Positions 37,785 to 48,317 of a stretch of DNA of 64,000 nucleotides are shown here, one piece after another. A model generated the notes under the pieces. That model made no database searches. It saw nothing but the letters and a program-made list of their open reading frames with translations, and had not been told where the DNA came from. Source of the stretch: Candidatus Cloacimonadota bacterium (GTDB lineage Bacteria; Muiribacteriota; UBA6191). The first letter of the stretch is position 1. Each line of letters opens with the position of its first letter. The position numbers and the translations under genes are program-made. Location of the stretch: the NCBI GenBank assembly GCA_002402105.1, contig NVVD01000002.1, forward strand, positions 28,680-92,679, read 5' to 3'.

Positions 37785-38782
37785 AAAATATTGTAGTAGG
37801 AATTTTTTCTATTATTCTTGTTTTGGTTTGTGTTTATCTGTATTTGATTTCTCCTTCATCAATGGAAAAAAAAGCAGATAAATTTTATCAAGACTCAAAA
37901 TATGAAGATGCGGCTCACTTTTATCAATTAGCATTTACAGAAGGTAATATTTCTTTTAAAAAAGAAAGGATTTTATTTAAATTGGGGAACTCTTATCGCT
38001 TGTCTGGTGAAACAGATAGATCTTTTGATTTTTATTTTATGGTTTTACAGGAAAATAAGTCTTCTGTTTATAAATCTCGCATTCAAGAGTTTTTAAGAGG
38101 AGAAAATGAAGGCTCTTTTCAATTAGATGTAGCGAGTCAAAATATTGAGGTTGATTTAAGTTTTTTAAATTCTACGACTGAACTTTCTTTGAAGGGAACT
38201 TTAGATAAAAGAGACGAAATTTATAAAGTTTTACTGCTAGCTATTTCAAATGATAATGCTAACTTAAGCTATCAATTAAAGGATATATATCGTGCTTTTA
38301 AAAAACTTCAATTGAAAGTTAAAGAAAAAAAAATTGAGGCAGCAGTCAAGATTAGTATAAAGAAAAGTATCAAAGATAAAAGAGAAATGCTTTTGATCGG
38401 TTTAGAGGATACTTTAAAAGTAGAACTCAAACAGATGCGTTCAAATTACAAGTTAATTATACATCAACTAGAAAGTGGAAATGATATTGTTACTCTTAAA
38501 AATGATATATTTCCTCAAGCTATTTATGTGTCCTTTAGTCAGGAATATGCTTCTATGGGATCTGATAACTTTTTAACTTTTTTAGAACGTTTGTATGATT
38601 CTCATGAAAATGCCAAAATTTTTTTAATGATTGACGATAGTAATAAAGAAGGACTATCTGAAATATTAGATTCATGGGATAAAGACGGACTTTATACTTT
38701 AGTATTTCAGGATCAGGATGAACTGGTGTCCAAGATAAAAGAAAGTTTGAAGGCTCGGTTTATATGGCAATCGAATGGTTAA
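37781..38782 (+). CDS. Membrane-anchored TPR-like protein
   Basis: 333 aa from GTG 37781, which overlaps the previous stop as GTGA and has AAGGGA upstream. An in-frame TTG at 37742 is less likely because it would put 13 charged residues before the membrane helix. One N-terminal helix (about 3-22), a TPR pair at about 30-95 (ADKFYQDSKYEDAAHFYQLAF), then a largely alpha/beta domain ending FMVVLQ-type strands. It overlaps the next gene by 19 nt. Function unknown. Confidence 0.65.
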   Translation: MKNIVVGIFSIILVLVCVYLYLISPSSMEKKADKFYQDSKYEDAAHFYQLAFTEGNISFKKERILFKLGNSYRLSGETDRSFDFYFMVLQENKSSVYKSRIQEFLRGENEGSFQLDVASQNIEVDLSFLNSTTELSLKGTLDKRDEIYKVLLLAISNDNANLSYQLKDIYRAFKKLQLKVKEKKIEAAVKISIKKSIKDKREMLLIGLEDTLKVELKQMRSNYKLIIHQLESGNDIVTLKNDIFPQAIYVSFSQEYASMGSDNFLTFLERLYDSHENAKIFLMIDDSNKEGLSEILDSWDKDGLYTLVFQDQDELVSKIKESLKARFIWQSNG

Positions 38783-40005
38783 ATGACATTCCAAGTGTAA
38801 AAAAAGTGTGGGAAGAAGAAGAGACTTCTTTTCGTTTGCATGCAATTCACTCCTTATATATGATGTTGAGCAAAGAAGCGGCTTCTGAATTAGAGGTTAT
38901 GCATCCTACTGCAGTTCAGCATGAAAAATATTTTGTAGAAAAAGCTAAAGAGAATATCGAAAAATATTTACAACATGGTAAAGTTCCTCTGGAAATTGAA
39001 AGAAGTCGTAAGCGTATAAATCAATTAGCCGAAGTAAAAAAGCGTAGGGAAGAGATTCCTAGAGATCCGATGCTTGATAAGGCTAATTTAGATGGTTTAG
39101 AAGATTCATTGAAGAGGGAATCATCGTATAAAGATGATAGTGTACCTTCTTTAGTACATCATGAAGAAAAACTTAGTCCAGTTTCTGATGAATATAGTTT
39201 AGATGACTCATACGATGCTTCTATAGGTTCTTATGAAAAGTCAGAGCAAGAGGTTTTATACGACGACTCTAATGCATATGAAGAAATATTAACGCAAGAG
39301 CCTGAGGTACAAGCAGAATATGATGATTTGTTGTCACCTATGGATGATGCTTCTGGTGAATACGATGATTTGTTACCTCCTATGAATGATGTTTCTGGTG
39401 AATATGATGATTTGTTACCACCTATGAATGATGGTTATGATGATTTATTACCTCCTCTGAATGAAGTTTCTGATGGTTATGATGATTTATTACCCCCTGT
39501 GAATGAAGTTTCTGGTGGTTATGATGATTTGTTACCACCTATGAACGATGGTTATGATGATTTATTACCTCCTGTAAATGAAGTTTCTGATGGTTATGAT
39601 GATTTATTACCTCCTGTAAATGAAGTTTCTGATGATTATGATGATTTATTACCTCCTGTGAATGAAGTTTCTGATGGTTATGATGATTTGTTACCTCCTG
39701 TGAATGAAGCTTCTGATGGTTATGATGATTTATTACCTCCTGTGAGTGATGCTTCGAGTGAATATGATGATTTATTGCCTCCTATGAATGATGCTTCGAG
39801 TGAATATGATGATTTATTGCCTCCTATGAATGATGCTTCTAGTGGTTATGATGATTTATTACCTCCTATGAATAATACCTCTAGTGGTTATGATGACTTA
39901 TTACCTCCTATGAATAATACTTCTAGCGAATATGATGATTTATTGCCTCCACTATCTGGTGGTGACGAATTTGATGATTTACTTCCTCCATTAAAGAAAG
40001 ATTAG
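38764..40005 (+). CDS. Acidic disordered protein with ~17 tandem YDDLLPP repeats
   Basis: 413 aa. Residues 1-110 are helical and basic-acidic mixed, and 110-185 are Asp/Glu/Ser-rich. From 186 to the end there are 17 units of mostly 14 residues (consensus Y-D-D-L-L-P-P-M/V-N-D/E-x-S-x-G/E), two shortened to 11, the last beginning FDDLLPP. The tail is expected to be disordered with a regularly repeated acidic-aromatic short linear motif, suiting multivalent binding. No signal peptide or membrane helix. Start and end are tightly packed with neighbours (19-nt overlap upstream, 4-nt gap downstream). I know no family. Confidence 0.75.
   Translation: MAIEWLNDIPSVKKVWEEEETSFRLHAIHSLYMMLSKEAASELEVMHPTAVQHEKYFVEKAKENIEKYLQHGKVPLEIERSRKRINQLAEVKKRREEIPRDPMLDKANLDGLEDSLKRESSYKDDSVPSLVHHEEKLSPVSDEYSLDDSYDASIGSYEKSEQEVLYDDSNAYEEILTQEPEVQAEYDDLLSPMDDASGEYDDLLPPMNDVSGEYDDLLPPMNDGYDDLLPPLNEVSDGYDDLLPPVNEVSGGYDDLLPPMNDGYDDLLPPVNEVSDGYDDLLPPVNEVSDDYDDLLPPVNEVSDGYDDLLPPVNEASDGYDDLLPPVSDASSEYDDLLPPMNDASSEYDDLLPPMNDASSGYDDLLPPMNNTSSGYDDLLPPMNNTSSEYDDLLPPLSGGDEFDDLLPPLKKD
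39319..40002 (+). repeat. In-frame tandem repeats of 42 bp (two units of 33 bp)
   Basis: The DNA encoding the YDDLLPP units repeats the core tatgatgatttattacctcc with high identity. The nearly identical middle copies (about 39545-39760) suggest recent duplication. Because units are multiples of three, length changes keep the frame. It is coding, not a CRISPR array. Confidence 0.9.
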
Positions 40006-41896: not shown

Positions 41897-42859
41897 ATGA
41901 ACTCTAGACAACTTGAAGAAGAGTTTAAAAAAGAAGAAGATGCAATTAATAAAAAAGTTCATCTTGGAGAGCTATCTGCTGATGAAGGTGACTTTTTAGT
42001 TAAACAAGCAAAAGAAAAATCAAAAAGAAGGCTGGCTAGATTAAAAAGACCTAGTAGAACAATTTTCTTTGTGATAGCTCTAATTGCTACCTTATGTTTT
42101 TTATATTCATTTTTTAAACTTTATACAGAGCTTGATAGGTTGTCAATTTCTCATATAGAACTTTATGTTTTAGTATCATCTGTATTTGTATTTTTAATTT
42201 TAGGGCACTTAGAGTTAAACCGACTAGAAAGAATGTTTTCTCGCTTTTTTTCAAAAGCTTATTTAAAGCAAATTTTATATGCTCCTGAAATTGATTTTGA
42301 ATGGGATCAGCGTGAACTAGTACAAGTTAGATTAAATGTAAAAAATCAAATTAATTTATATGCAGGGCTATTAGATGAAGAAGTCTGTGAATTGAACTCT
42401 AATTTGTTAAGTGCTGTGACAACAGTTTTTGATGATGGAAGTGGCTTAATTGAAGAGGTTGCTCTTGGATATTATGTAATCAATTACAGAGGAAGTCATA
42501 ATGTAGAATTAGTGATAACGAAAATAGAAAAATTATTTAGCCTATTACGTATGCATGATGGAGATTGGTTTTCAAAATCGGTTAGAATGGGTGCTAGTGT
42601 TGTAAGTGGAAGACTTTGGTGTGGAACTTTAGGAACAGGTTTTCAAGTTTATCGGACGATGGGGCATAAGGTAAAAACATCTGAGGCTTTGGCCGAGGCA
42701 ACAGGCTGGGAAGAAATTTATTTAGACGAATATTCATTAAATACCATTGATAAAATAGCAATCACAAGTGATAAAGAACCTGTTTTTTTACGTTCTACTA
42801 GTGAGCTAATTTCTGTACATCAATTTATTACTTGGAGAGGTGGAAAAAGTGGCATTTGA
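41897..42859 (+). CDS. Membrane protein with degenerate class III nucleotidyl-cyclase domain
   Basis: 320 aa. A charged N-terminal helix is followed by two membrane helices (about 54-75 and 87-104), then a domain following class III adenylyl/guanylyl cyclases: FSRFFSKAYLKQIL (116-129), a central LLSAVTTVFDDGSGLIEEVALGYYV-like stretch (170-194), and VRMGASVVSGRLWCGTLGTGFQVYRTMGHKV (229-259), the equivalent of the Gly-rich IG..vN.AaRL region. The two metal-binding Asp are replaced (VRLNVKN and LGYYVIN), so it is probably inactive and may bind a nucleotide or partner. It overlaps the HEAT-repeat gene by about 10-20 nt. Confidence 0.65.
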   Translation: MNSRQLEEEFKKEEDAINKKVHLGELSADEGDFLVKQAKEKSKRRLARLKRPSRTIFFVIALIATLCFLYSFFKLYTELDRLSISHIELYVLVSSVFVFLILGHLELNRLERMFSRFFSKAYLKQILYAPEIDFEWDQRELVQVRLNVKNQINLYAGLLDEEVCELNSNLLSAVTTVFDDGSGLIEEVALGYYVINYRGSHNVELVITKIEKLFSLLRMHDGDWFSKSVRMGASVVSGRLWCGTLGTGFQVYRTMGHKVKTSEALAEATGWEEIYLDEYSLNTIDKIAITSDKEPVFLRSTSELISVHQFITWRGGKSGI

Positions 42860-44738
42860 ATTAAGTGAATCAGAACAGTATGACTTATTTTATGAATTAG
42901 CGAAGAGTTTATCCCATCCATCAAGAGAGGTTAGAGTTTCTACAGTTGCTGCTATTTCTCGTATAGCCAATAGAAGATGTACTAATTTATTATTAGATAA
43001 ATTAGATTTAGAAAAAGATATTTTTATTAAAGCTTCTTTAATTAGAATTTTAGGAGAAATTGGTACTCCAAATTTAATTGATGCATTAGAAAAGTATCAA
43101 ATTCATTCAGAACCTAGAATCAGAGCAAATGCTATTGAAAGCATGGTAAAGCTTCAAATTAAAAATAAGGAAGAATTAGTAAAAAGAATTATCCCTTGTG
43201 TACATGATGAAAATAATAGAGTTTCATCAACAGCTTTGAAAGAGCTATTATCTTTAGGAGAAACTCGTTTTGTGCCTTATTTAAAACTATTACTAAAAGG
43301 TACTGATACAAATAGAAAGTCATCAGCTATTTGGGTAGTGGGTGAATTAGGTTTAGTAGAGTTTGTAGAAGATGTTGTTTTTTCTTTATATTCTGAAAAT
43401 TATCAAGTGCATTCTATTGCTGAAAGAGTTCTGATAAAATTTAAGGATAAAGCCTTACCTATATTATTTGAAAATCTTTTTATGGGTGACTCAATGGTAA
43501 AAGTTTATACTTTTTTATTTTTATCTAAGCACTTAGATGAAATAAGTGAAGAGCAAAATGATATTTTATTTAACTTTGTAGAAACAGAAAATGATTTTAT
43601 TGTTTCATTTGTATTAAAAATATTATATAAATTTAAATCAGATAAAGCTTTTAATTTAATGAAATCTTACTTGTTTGCTGAAGATGAAGCCCTAAGAAAA
43701 GTATCAATAGAAGGAATATCAAACTTTGTAGATAGAGATGAAATTGATGCTTTATTGGTAAAAGCTATTCAATCTGAAAAAGAGCCAAGACTTTTGGCTA
43801 GTTTAATTAAGTGTTTAAGTGCCTTTCCTCAACAGATTTCAGAAGATTTATTAAAAGGTTTTTTAGATCATGAGGATGATCGAGTTTGTGCAAATGCTAT
43901 TGAGCTTTTTGGAAATAAAGGTGATGAAAAACTGTTATCCCTCATTACTCCACATGTAAAAAGTTCTAATAACAGGATTATGGCTAATGCTGCTATCGCT
44001 TGTTTTAGATTAGGCGAGAAAAAAGTATTGGGTCATTTAAAAGAAGCTTTAGTTTCATCAAATGTAAAGATGAGAGCTTCTGCTGCTTTTGCACTAGGAG
44101 AAATAGGTTCATCAGATGTAGTAGAAATTCTTATTGAGCGTTTATTAAAAGATGTTCAATCTGTAAGAAAACATATTATAAATGGTCTATTACAACAAGA
44201 TAAGGGTATTTATCAAAAGTTAATTGATATATTAAAAGAATCAAACTCGATGCAATCAAGAGAAGTATTAGCTGAAATATCTCATAAAGTTAAGACACCT
44301 CAAGAGCAAATACAAAAGTTACTTGAATACTATAGTGATGAAGTTACTGCATTTGAAATTCCAGAAAAAATGTCAGATCAAGAAATTGATGAAGTAATGG
44401 AGTTATTATTTTGTAATGATCAAAAATTAAAAACTTATGGCATCTATATTATGGGTGAGAAAAAGGTTTATAAAAGCGTTTCTAGGTTAATTTGTTTGCT
44501 GTATGAAAGAAATGATGACGTAGTTGGAGAGACTCTTTTGGCTCTTGAAAAATTAAATAAAGAAGAAACTTTAGTTTTTTTAAGAGATGTTTATCCTTGG
44601 ATGAACAATGAGAATATAGATTTATGTGCAAAGGTAATGCAACACTTTGCCAAAGGAAAATTAGACGACTCTTATTTTACAGGTCGTTTGAAAGAAAAAC
44701 ATTTAATTTGCTTAGAAACTTATAAAGTGGGTAAATAA
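42849..44738 (+). CDS. HEAT-repeat protein
   Basis: 629 aa of alpha-helical repeats of about 30 residues, PBS-lyase/HEAT type (SHPSREVRVSTVAAISRIANRRC; SSNVKMRASAAFALGEIGSSDVVEIL read as helix pairs) covering most of the chain. No signal or membrane segment, so a cytosolic binding scaffold. The start is GTG 42849 with GGAGAGG 8 nt upstream; a GTG at 42840 is also in frame but overlaps that ribosome site. It is translationally coupled to the cyclase-like gene and immediately followed by the pilin genes, so it may recruit regulators to the pilus machinery. Confidence 0.75.
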   Translation: MAFELSESEQYDLFYELAKSLSHPSREVRVSTVAAISRIANRRCTNLLLDKLDLEKDIFIKASLIRILGEIGTPNLIDALEKYQIHSEPRIRANAIESMVKLQIKNKEELVKRIIPCVHDENNRVSSTALKELLSLGETRFVPYLKLLLKGTDTNRKSSAIWVVGELGLVEFVEDVVFSLYSENYQVHSIAERVLIKFKDKALPILFENLFMGDSMVKVYTFLFLSKHLDEISEEQNDILFNFVETENDFIVSFVLKILYKFKSDKAFNLMKSYLFAEDEALRKVSIEGISNFVDRDEIDALLVKAIQSEKEPRLLASLIKCLSAFPQQISEDLLKGFLDHEDDRVCANAIELFGNKGDEKLLSLITPHVKSSNNRIMANAAIACFRLGEKKVLGHLKEALVSSNVKMRASAAFALGEIGSSDVVEILIERLLKDVQSVRKHIINGLLQQDKGIYQKLIDILKESNSMQSREVLAEISHKVKTPQEQIQKLLEYYSDEVTAFEIPEKMSDQEIDEVMELLFCNDQKLKTYGIYIMGEKKVYKSVSRLICLLYERNDDVVGETLLALEKLNKEETLVFLRDVYPWMNNENIDLCAKVMQHFAKGKLDDSYFTGRLKEKHLICLETYKVGK

Positions 44739-45791
44739 TTGAATGATTTATTTCTTCAAATATTAGAAATTCGCAGTAATTTATCTTTGTTGCCAACAGA
44801 GGTAATAGCTTTTGTAATAGCTTTATTGGCTGGTATGTCTGGTTCTTTTATTAATATGGCAGTTTGGAGAGTTCCTAGAAAAGAGTCAATTGTTTTTCCA
44901 AGGTCTCATTGTCCTGTTTGTAATCATGTACTTGGGCTAAGTGATTTGATACCCGTTTTGAGTTATATTTTCTTAAGAGGAAAATGCCAATATTGCAAAA
45001 CTCCTTATGGCCCAAGATATATGTATATCGAGTTAATACTAGTATCGATTGCTTTAATTTTATATTTTTCTTTGGGTTTATCTATATATTCTCTTTCTAT
45101 TTTTGTGATAATATCTATTAGTACTTTTTTAATTGGAATAAAAAATTCAAAAAAATTGGATCAAAATATTATTAGTTTAAGTGAAAATACTAAAGGTTTT
45201 ACTTTTTTAGAAGTAATGATGACAATGGTTATTGTTGGGGTGATTATTATTCCATTTGGTAATTTATTTATTAGTTCGTACGGGAGAGTAATTAAGAATA
45301 AAAACTATTTAATCGCCTATAATTTAGCAGAAGAAAAAATGGAAGAACTACTCTTAGTCGACTTTTCAAAACTTAAATCAGATTTTGAGCTTTATGCTCA
45401 TACTGCTGAAAATAAAGATTCTATTTTTGCTGATGAGCACAATGGTATTTATCAAAAAATGAAAGAAGACGAAGCTTTTTTTGAAAAAAACTTTTCTGAC
45501 ATATATACAAAAAAAATTCAACTACCAGTAACTATTATGAAATATTTTAAGAAAAGGTATAAGTTTTATTTTGAAAGAAGCTACGAACTTTACCCAAAGG
45601 GATACGAAAACTTTAAGCGAACGGTTAAAATTACCCCAGTGTATATTGAGCATAATAAAAAATTTAGAAAAGAGTATTTACAAAAACTAGATAAAGAGAT
45701 TACAAATCTTTTAAAAATGACAGTAACTGTTTGGATAAAAACAAAATCATTTGAAAGAAAAATAGTTTTATCAAGGTATAGAAAGCGTTGA
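44739..45791 (+). CDS. Prepilin-peptidase Cys4 domain fused to a type IV prepilin-like protein
   Basis: 350 aa in one uninterrupted frame. Residues 20-135 are the N-terminal DiS_P_DiS part of a PilD/GspO-type peptidase: GSFINMAVWRVP, SHCPVC (Cys58, 61), IPVLSYIFLRGKCQYC (Cys83, 86), YIELI, then two membrane helices. The catalytic Asp-bearing half is absent. Instead, residues 151-178 are a prepilin start: TKG-FTFLEVMMTMVIVG, with cleavage expected after Gly153 and Glu at +5, followed by a pilin-like body to 350. The prepilin leader is therefore about 150 residues of membrane domain instead of 6-30. The TTG start directly abuts the HEAT gene stop. A second prepilin follows after 1 nt. Confidence 0.8.
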   Translation: MNDLFLQILEIRSNLSLLPTEVIAFVIALLAGMSGSFINMAVWRVPRKESIVFPRSHCPVCNHVLGLSDLIPVLSYIFLRGKCQYCKTPYGPRYMYIELILVSIALILYFSLGLSIYSLSIFVIISISTFLIGIKNSKKLDQNIISLSENTKGFTFLEVMMTMVIVGVIIIPFGNLFISSYGRVIKNKNYLIAYNLAEEKMEELLLVDFSKLKSDFELYAHTAENKDSIFADEHNGIYQKMKEDEAFFEKNFSDIYTKKIQLPVTIMKYFKKRYKFYFERSYELYPKGYENFKRTVKITPVYIEHNKKFRKEYLQKLDKEITNLLKMTVTVWIKTKSFERKIVLSRYRKR

Positions 45792-45792
45792 T

Positions 45793-46401
45793 ATGAAACT
45801 ACTAAAATCTAAGGCTTTTACTTTATTAGAAACCATGATGGTGGCTTCTATTATGATTATGGTTTCTGGTATGATTTATACTTTTCATATCAATCTAGTA
45901 AGAACATATTATCGTGGTTCTGAGATGTTACTAGATGTGCAAGAAGCGCAAACAATTTTAGAAGTAATGACAAAAGAACTTCGTAGTGCTTCTGTATTAG
46001 TGAAGCTAACACCAGATTATTTAGAGTTTTTAAGGTTTTATGATGCTGATTTATTACAAGAAAATGATCCTGTTAAAGATCTCAACAGAATCCAGGTGAA
46101 AAAAATAGCTTACAGAATTAGAAAAGATGATGAAGACTTTTATATTGTTGAAAGACAAGAAGGTTCATCAGCCTTTTTACCACTATCTGGAGGGCTACGC
46201 TCTAAAGTGTTAAATCCTAATGTATTTAAAGGCTGGAAAAAAACAAGAAAAGGTTACTTTGTTTTTGATCCTAATCGTTCAGGGCCCGATAGAGTTCCAT
46301 TGATTCAAATCACTCTTGCCTTACAAAAAGAAAAAAATCCAATAACTTTGATTAAAAAAGTTTTTTTGCCTGTGCCTTATGGGGCGACTCCTAAATTATA
46401 A
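45793..46401 (+). CDS. Type IV prepilin-like protein (PulJ/ComGF type)
   Basis: 202 aa. A short leader MKLLKSKA is followed by FTLLETMMVASIMIMVSGM. The peptidase site is after Ala8 rather than the more common Gly (Ala is tolerated), with Glu at +5 and a single hydrophobic helix. The body (AQTILEVMTKELRSASVL, then beta-rich sequence with PDRVPLIQITLALQKE) is typical of minor pseudopilins such as PulJ/GspJ. It lies between the fusion prepilin and the PilB/GspE ATPase gene. Confidence 0.8.
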   Translation: MKLLKSKAFTLLETMMVASIMIMVSGMIYTFHINLVRTYYRGSEMLLDVQEAQTILEVMTKELRSASVLVKLTPDYLEFLRFYDADLLQENDPVKDLNRIQVKKIAYRIRKDDEDFYIVERQEGSSAFLPLSGGLRSKVLNPNVFKGWKKTRKGYFVFDPNRSGPDRVPLIQITLALQKEKNPITLIKKVFLPVPYGATPKL

Positions 46402-46613: not shown

Positions 46614-48317
46614 ATGGCTGAAGCCGTTGATAAGTCAAAAATGAGAATTGGTGATGTGCTCGAATATAGAGGGTATGTTACTAAAGTTCAGATGGATGCT
46701 GCATTTAAGAAGCAAAAAGAAACAGGTCTTCGACTAGGAGAACAGTTAATTGCTTCTGGAGTGGTTTCTGAAGAAATCATGCTTGAATGTCTATGTTGGC
46801 AAAAAGATGTTGCTATGATGTCGGTTGTAGGTTTAGAGATTTCGCCAACTGCATATGGTATGTTGAGTGAAGATTACATCGAGCAAAACCTAGTTTTACC
46901 TATTGATATAAAAGGTAAAATAATTACTGTGGTACATAGTGACCCATTAAACTTGAGTTTTATTGCTGATGAAGTTGGTCATAAAACAAATTGTAAAGTA
47001 GAGATGTTTGCAGCTACAGAAGGTGGCATTAGAAAATGTATTGAAGAGTATCGAGAAAAAATGAGAGAGTTTCAACCTCTTATTGATGCTTTAGATGGTG
47101 AGTCTCCCGATAAACCAAATCCAATGACTGATTTAGTTTATGATCTTGATGATGCTGCTACTCCAATGATTTCTTTTTGTAATATGATTTTAAAGACTGG
47201 TATGCAAAAAGGTGCCACAGATATTTTTATTGAATTTCATGCAGATCAATTACAAATACGCTATAAGTTAGATGGTGAGGTACAAGAGCTATTAAAATTT
47301 CCATCTCTTTTTGATAAACATAAAGAAAAAGTAGTTGCTAGATTAAAAACTATGGCAAATATGGATATTTCGGAGAAACGTGTACCTCAAGATAGTAAGT
47401 TTAAAGCTGTTTATTTAAAGAAGTCGATGGATTGTAGAATCAGTACTTTACCAACTGTAGAAGGAGAAAGAGTTGTTTTGAGACTTTTACAAAAAGACCG
47501 TCTCAATGTGACTTTATCTAATGCTGGTTTTTCTAATTATTCTTTTAAAGTAATGACACAGCTTTTGGCAAAACCTTATGGACTACTTTTAGTAACAGGC
47601 CCAACGGGCTCTGGTAAAACTACAACTTTGTATGCATCATTGGCTCATGTTTGGACTCCTAAAAAATCTGTTGTTACTGTAGAAGACCCCGTTGAATATG
47701 AGATATTAAACTATGCACAGGTTCAAGTAAACACTGATGTTGGTTTAGGTTTTGCTGAAAGTTTAAGGGCAATTTTAAGACAGGCTCCAGATATTATTTT
47801 AGTGGGTGAAATTAGAGATGGTGAAACAGCAAAAATAGCCTGTGAAGCTGCTATGACTGGTCATATGGTCTTATCTACACTTCATGCGAATACTGCTGCT
47901 AGTTCTGTTATGCGTTTAACAGAAATTGGTGTAGACCATTATTTAATGTCATCTGTTTTAATAGGGGCTCTTTCACAAAGATTAGTAAGAAAACTTTGTG
48001 TTCGATGTAGAAAAAAGGTTCCTTTGGTAAAAGAGATTCAATTATTTGCAAATAGATATAAGCTTAAGTCGCAGTTTGTATATGATAGTAAAGGCTGTGA
48101 GTATTGCCGAGGTAGTGGTTATGTCGGTCGTTTAGGTATTCATGAGGTTTTAGTAAATACTCCTGAGGTTGGAGATGCTATTACTAGAAAAGTGCCTCCT
48201 ATGGACCTAGAAGCAGTAGCAAGAAAAAAGGGATTTATCTCTTTAAAAGATGATGCATATTTAAAAGTATTACAAGGTTTAACAGATTTAAAACAGGTAT
48301 TAAAAGCCGCAGGTTAA
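46614..48317 (+). CDS. pilB: Type IV pilus / type II secretion assembly ATPase (PilB/GspE)
   Basis: 567 aa secretion ATPase that powers pilus or pseudopilus extension. The N-terminal MshEN-type domain spans about 10-80 (IGDVLEYRGYVTKVQMDAAFKKQK). The ATPase core has GPTGSGKTTTLYA (Walker A, about 329), the Asp-box VVTVEDPVEYE, ILVGEIRDGETAKIACEAAMTGHMV and STLHANTAASSV with the His box. A tetra-Cys zinc site is present (CVRC, then CEYC), as in PilB/GspE. No pilC/gspF, pilT, pilM-Q or complete pilD lies in the window, so other components are elsewhere. It is followed 12 nt later by an outer-membrane protein gene. Confidence 0.9.
   Translation: MAEAVDKSKMRIGDVLEYRGYVTKVQMDAAFKKQKETGLRLGEQLIASGVVSEEIMLECLCWQKDVAMMSVVGLEISPTAYGMLSEDYIEQNLVLPIDIKGKIITVVHSDPLNLSFIADEVGHKTNCKVEMFAATEGGIRKCIEEYREKMREFQPLIDALDGESPDKPNPMTDLVYDLDDAATPMISFCNMILKTGMQKGATDIFIEFHADQLQIRYKLDGEVQELLKFPSLFDKHKEKVVARLKTMANMDISEKRVPQDSKFKAVYLKKSMDCRISTLPTVEGERVVLRLLQKDRLNVTLSNAGFSNYSFKVMTQLLAKPYGLLLVTGPTGSGKTTTLYASLAHVWTPKKSVVTVEDPVEYEILNYAQVQVNTDVGLGFAESLRAILRQAPDIILVGEIRDGETAKIACEAAMTGHMVLSTLHANTAASSVMRLTEIGVDHYLMSSVLIGALSQRLVRKLCVRCRKKVPLVKEIQLFANRYKLKSQFVYDSKGCEYCRGSGYVGRLGIHEVLVNTPEVGDAITRKVPPMDLEAVARKKGFISLKDDAYLKVLQGLTDLKQVLKAAG

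Follow-up and report, generated by a model that had tools for sequence, protein, structure and literature searches.

In well-studied bacteria the prepilin peptidase and pilin methylase activities are found together on one protein. For PilD of P. aeruginosa it has been shown that zinc at a CxxC-x21-CxxC site is required for methylation of the mature pilin and not for cleavage of the leader, and that a Gly and a basic residue beside the third Cys also matter (PMC3584216). Reviews describe the Cys4 half as the methylase domain and the remainder as the peptidase domain, and peptidases of the Tad type do without a Cys4 domain (PMC10191384). That PF06750, the Cys4 domain, acts as a methylase alone has been called 'very likely' but 'remains to be formally demonstrated' (PMC4471445); a co-evolution study has predicted an interaction between PF06750 and the prepilin family PF07963 (PMC6822775), and the reason for pilin N-methylation is described as a mystery of more than 40 years' standing (PMC10191384).

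The 64,000-nucleotide stretch of DNA analysed here (the window) carries a gene of 350 aa (44739..45791, +) in which the prepilin-peptidase N-terminal (methylase) domain is followed in frame by a prepilin, the arrangement that a preliminary description of this DNA had put forward. Its TTG start codon (44739..44741, +; Shine-Dalgarno (SD) energy -6.1 kcal/mol) lies directly 3' of the stop of a gene for a HEAT-repeat protein (42840..44738, +), a neighbour that is conserved in family f1, and the same stop-then-TTG arrangement is present in the public contig JAGSHD010000004.1 (L010), which has a 75% identical fusion with the same neighbours. Next in the operon is a second prepilin (45793..46401, +), a homolog of which trails the same pilin in families f4, f5, f6, f7 and f8, and beyond it an assembly ATPase with T2SSE and MshEN domains (46614..48317, +; Pfam, 389 and 41.7 bits). 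A promoter scan gave sites no commoner than chance expectation. Elsewhere in the window, 38764-40005 codes for a protein of 413 aa, in whose gene a 42-bp repeat occurs about 15 times and specifies units of the YDDLLPP(M/V)N type; the gene is kept in the homologs of L010 and genome G035, and the repeats are kept in L010.

The A24_N_bact domain (PF06750) occupies aa 31-110 of the fusion (44829..45068, +; Pfam, 97.4 bits). The first CxxC of its Cys4 zinc site (C58 and C61; 44910..44921, +) is invariant in all eight fusions sampled from the class, and the second lies in G81-K82-C83-x-x-C86 (44979..44996, +), which places a Gly and a basic residue beside Cys3 and gives the spacing CxxC-x21-CxxC; in the alignment the four cysteines, the x21 spacing and the Gly are kept in all eight, the basic residue being K, R or H. 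Hydropathy gives three membrane helices ahead of the pilin, at about aa 20-40, 97-117 and 116-134 (helices 2 and 3, about aa 97-134, at 45027..45140, +), rather than the two first counted, and the positive charge in the loops matches the expected cytoplasmic loops. The catalytic half is missing as had been supposed, with no Pfam match to Peptidase_A24 (PF01478) in the ORF, the region missing from all eight fusions, and no Asp in the helix 2-3 region where the first catalytic Asp would fall when the fusion is aligned to full PilDs. The Cys4 domain had also been taken for the substrate-contacting part of the peptidase, a role at odds with the literature, which ties it and its zinc to N-methylation and not to cleavage (PMC3584216, PMC10191384). 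Given this published work, and since all known methylation residues are kept in every fusion, the protein is better described as a methylase half plus a pilin.

A short, positively charged linker of variable sequence and length (aa 135-152; 45141..45194, +) leads to the predicted prepilin cleavage site between G153 and F154 (45195..45200, +) in K152-G153/F154-T-F-L-E158, so that the leader would be 153 aa long; both the class III site KG-FTFLE and the leader of about 150 residues are thus borne out. The GFTF is invariant in all eight fusions. PF07963 (N_methyl) matches aa 151-171 with 22.3 bits in Pfam (cut-off 21.2), and the NCBIfam model TIGR02532 also matches the GFxxxE motif, with 20.1 bits. 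The predicted mature pilin of 197 aa (45198..45788, +) can be aligned along its length to pilins that five other families encode separately, all with ordinary short leaders. The fusion has the signals of a type IV prepilin, with Gly at -1, a hydrophobic helix and, in five of the eight, Glu at +5 (E158 here; 45210-45212, +); position 5 is Ser in G029 (L017/L120), G031 (L018) and G032 (L108). The f7 homolog scores 22.6 bits against the PilV model TIGR02523, under its cut-off of 52.2. Sequence searches of the PDB gave no useful match to the fusion and no relative past the N-terminal helix, AlphaFold reached a pLDDT of 38 for the whole fusion with two sequences as input and of 69 for the N-domain alone, and a fold search with the latter found no match in the PDB.

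A conservation search of 40 genomes of the phylum, in which the class is represented by eight genomes (eight species in the three families f1, f2 and f3), found the fusion at full length or nearly so in all eight class genomes and in none of the others. In all eight species the Cys4 domain and the pilin share one frame that neither a stop nor a frameshift interrupts, including at residues 135-150 where the preliminary description would have looked for one as evidence against a fusion. The collection beyond the phylum was scanned with short peptide patterns only, and fusions could exist in other phyla; among plasmid records there were 490 matches, none covering more than 80% of the query and hence no fusion, and neither a PF06750-pilin fusion nor a stand-alone PF06750 protein was found reported in the open-licence literature. 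The fusion is a real, conserved and new domain arrangement assembled from known families.

Purifying selection on the Cys4 domain is strong. Values of dN/dS by the Nei-Gojobori method lie at 0.03-0.09 in the N-domain and at 0.14-0.63 in the third helix plus linker, and for the pilin they are 0.10-0.24 in three pairs within family f2, the other two pairs being saturated at synonymous sites. Across the eight fusions aa 30-118 contain 30 invariant columns and aa 119-150 a single one, G133, where the third helix ends. As GFTF is invariant whilst the linker around it varies, it would seem that selection keeps cleavage at this site.

In families f4, f5, f6 and f8 the operon has the order full pilD, homolog of the fused pilin (pilin I), homolog of the second pilin (pilin J), where the window has the fusion and then the second pilin. 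In the tree the fused N-domains form one clade (support 99/97) that adjoins the full PilDs of f4, f5, f6 and f8 and lies apart from the f7 proteins. The simplest history would be a single event in which pilD lost its peptidase half and the leftover N-half became joined to the next gene. An RpoB tree gives three well-supported groups, namely the class, f7, and f4, f5, f6 and f8 together; it is midpoint-rooted, and as the class and f7 are sisters under that root there may have been one or two uncouplings of methylase from peptidase. The RpoB proteins themselves (loci L130-L136) are about 1510-1615 aa long in f4, f5, f6 and f8, where complete, against about 1290-1380 aa in the class and f7, the extra length being an insertion in the Rpb2_6 domain region.

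The window genome (G000) has exactly one A24_N_bact domain, that of the fusion, and exactly one Peptidase_A24 protein, of 306 aa and on another contig (G000:C23), and G033, G034 and G035 likewise have one gene of each kind; the genomes are mostly drafts, and the absence of a second peptidase from a single draft would be weak, but the four f1 genomes are concordant. For the catalytic proteins of G000, G033 and G034 the sole match is to Peptidase_A24, and even at E 0.05 none of them matches A24_N_bact. We dropped the idea that the catalytic PilD simply does without its N-terminal region, as the region is present in f1 with its cysteines reordered and has an intact Cys4 in f2 and f3. The f1 version has four cysteines in a different arrangement, without the Gly-basic-Cys-x-x-Cys motif, and with four cysteines still there it may bind zinc. 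The catalytic PilDs of f2 and f3 retain a Cys4 domain of their own, which has an insertion; the Gly before Cys3 is lost in f2, and f3 keeps Gly-Arg. Because of these f2 and f3 proteins the separation across the class is graded and not clean.

Family f7, a sister family, carries the methylase and peptidase halves on separate proteins, neither fused to a pilin. All 22 of its A24_N_bact proteins examined keep the Cys4 and have no GxGD, and the separate catalytic protein has no recognisable A24_N_bact domain but a conserved CxxC-x7-C in its place. The stand-alone proteins retain a long multi-helix C-terminal half, and for this reason methylation may need more than the N-domain. Examples of these PilD-like proteins are found at L102:5551-6279 (-) and L103:4920-5729 (+), and in several cases a major pilin gene adjoins.

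The reading that we favour, and which we regard as probable though well short of secure, is that the fusion is a precursor, which PilD would process into a minor pilin and a membrane methylase. The first 153 residues, with their three membrane helices and a Cys4 zinc domain on the cytoplasmic side, would correspond to the half of a bifunctional prepilin peptidase that acts as methylase, and the remainder would be a minor pilin. The catalytic peptidase from the other contig would cut between Gly153 and Phe154 on the cytoplasmic side of the membrane, the released pilin would join the filament, and the leader, still in the membrane, would act as an N-methyltransferase or as a subunit of a methylase, methylating the new N-terminus in cis and serving other prepilins in trans; there are about 36 N_methyl matches in the window genome, so that a single methylase domain would have many pilins to deal with. 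That a peptidase from elsewhere in the genome cuts the protein and the leader remains in the membrane had already been suggested, and of that proposal the separate Peptidase_A24 protein and the site conserved in all eight fusions fit well, whilst cleavage and retention are steps that we infer. The features proposed for a stand-alone pilin N-methylase are all present: a Cys4 domain, no peptidase catalytic residues and a separate peptidase in the genome. In favour of a methylase leader are the occurrence of the fusion in all eight class genomes, the single clade of N-domains, the ancestral pilD-pilin-pilin operon, the retained methylation residues, the f1 peptidase with no A24_N_bact match, the invariant GFTF, the split in f7 and the interaction of PF06750 with PF07963 predicted from co-evolution; against it count the Cys4 of the f2 and f3 PilDs, the four cysteines of the f1 PilD, the C-terminal half of the f7 proteins, the formal proof still pending for PF06750 and the low pLDDT.

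An unlikely alternative is that the N-domain is not an enzyme but a docking module, which would bind the catalytic peptidase in trans in place of the altered N-half of the latter and guide this pilin, or every pilin, to the active site. The strong selection on the N-domain would suit such a role, as would the catalytic proteins of f1 and f7, whose A24_N_bact domain is no longer recognisable and might be replaceable by a separate partner, but leader cleavage by the P. aeruginosa PilD needs no zinc and Tad-type peptidases have no such domain (PMC3584216, PMC10191384), and it is the methylation-linked Gly-basic-Cys3 motif that has been kept.

It seems less probable again that the leader stays uncleaved, the pilin being anchored through its N-domain and serving pilus assembly as a platform in the membrane or as a priming subunit. 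Minor-pilin complexes are known to start assembly (PMC10191384), and the sole link to priming is that the fused pilin and its neighbour weakly resemble minor pilins; furthermore the Ser in place of Glu5 in three of the species is as in some tip subunits. An uncleaved leader sits poorly with a GFTF that is invariant in all eight fusions beside a freely diverging linker, and with homologs in five other families that are ordinary short-leader prepilins.

It would seem very unlikely that two proteins are made, a stand-alone N-domain and an ordinary prepilin whose translation would begin at an internal start codon some 13 codons ahead of the cleavage site. There is an in-frame ATG or TTG 10-18 codons ahead of the site in all eight species (TTG only in G000 and G035), but the sole candidate in the window, the TTG at 45156, has an SD energy of +0.4 kcal/mol and so no ribosome-binding site, against -6.1 for the annotated start, a median of -5.1 for genes of the window and of -1.2 for internal in-frame start-type codons. 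In six of the other seven species the internal site is weak (-1.1 to -3.3), G031 being the exception at -5.6, and in no species does a stop codon separate the halves. Internal initiation giving two products, which the preliminary description had named as grounds against a single protein, is not supported by these predicted sites.

Scarcely any more credible is that the N-domain is a leftover whose sole use is as a leader for membrane insertion; fast evolution is indeed seen in the third helix and linker, but a relic was rejected on the dN/dS values, which together with the 30 invariant columns, the Cys4 among them, mark the N-domain as a working part. Finally, a sequencing, assembly or binning artefact can practically be dismissed, for although the genomes all look like drafts in many contigs and the window genome has an estimated contamination of 8.6%, the intact fused frame recurs in independent assemblies of eight species, JAGSHD010000004.1 included, with the same neighbours in f1, and a frame at full length in every class genome is neither chance nor sequencing error.

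The wider picture that follows from a methylase leader is of a prepilin whose leader would itself be an enzyme, in a phylum that has split the activities of PilD, by fusion in the class and with a stand-alone protein in the sister family, and we put this at even chances. A lineage with split activities would offer natural single-function versions in which methylation could be tested without touching cleavage. Within one gene the fusion also ties the methylase domain to the pilin methylation motif, two elements that have been predicted to interact (PMC6822775), and a natural split of activities that are usually joined bears on the poorly understood methylation step and on the role of PF06750 (PMC4471445).

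Amongst known systems, PilD/GspO (PF06750 plus PF01478) shares with the fusion the Cys4 CxxC-x21-CxxC, the Gly-basic pair before Cys3, the flanking membrane helices and the placement on the cytoplasmic side, whereas the fusion is without both catalytic aspartates and the GxGD half and has a pilin in their place. The stand-alone PilD-like proteins of f7 are alike in their intact Cys4, the absence of GxGD and a catalytic peptidase elsewhere, but they are unfused to a pilin, have the multi-helix C-terminal half and form a separate clade. The partner G000:C23 resembles peptidases of the TadV/FppA type in that Peptidase_A24 alone is recognisable, but it has an odd cysteine-containing N-terminal region and its 306 aa make it much longer than TadV-type proteins. 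With minor type IV prepilins (PilV/GspI-like, PF07963) the fusion has in common the Gly at -1, Phe at +1, Glu at +5 (in five of the eight fusions), the hydrophobic helix and a second prepilin gene that comes next, but where those have a short hydrophilic peptide as their leader, that of the fusion is 153 aa long and contains a three-helix membrane domain.
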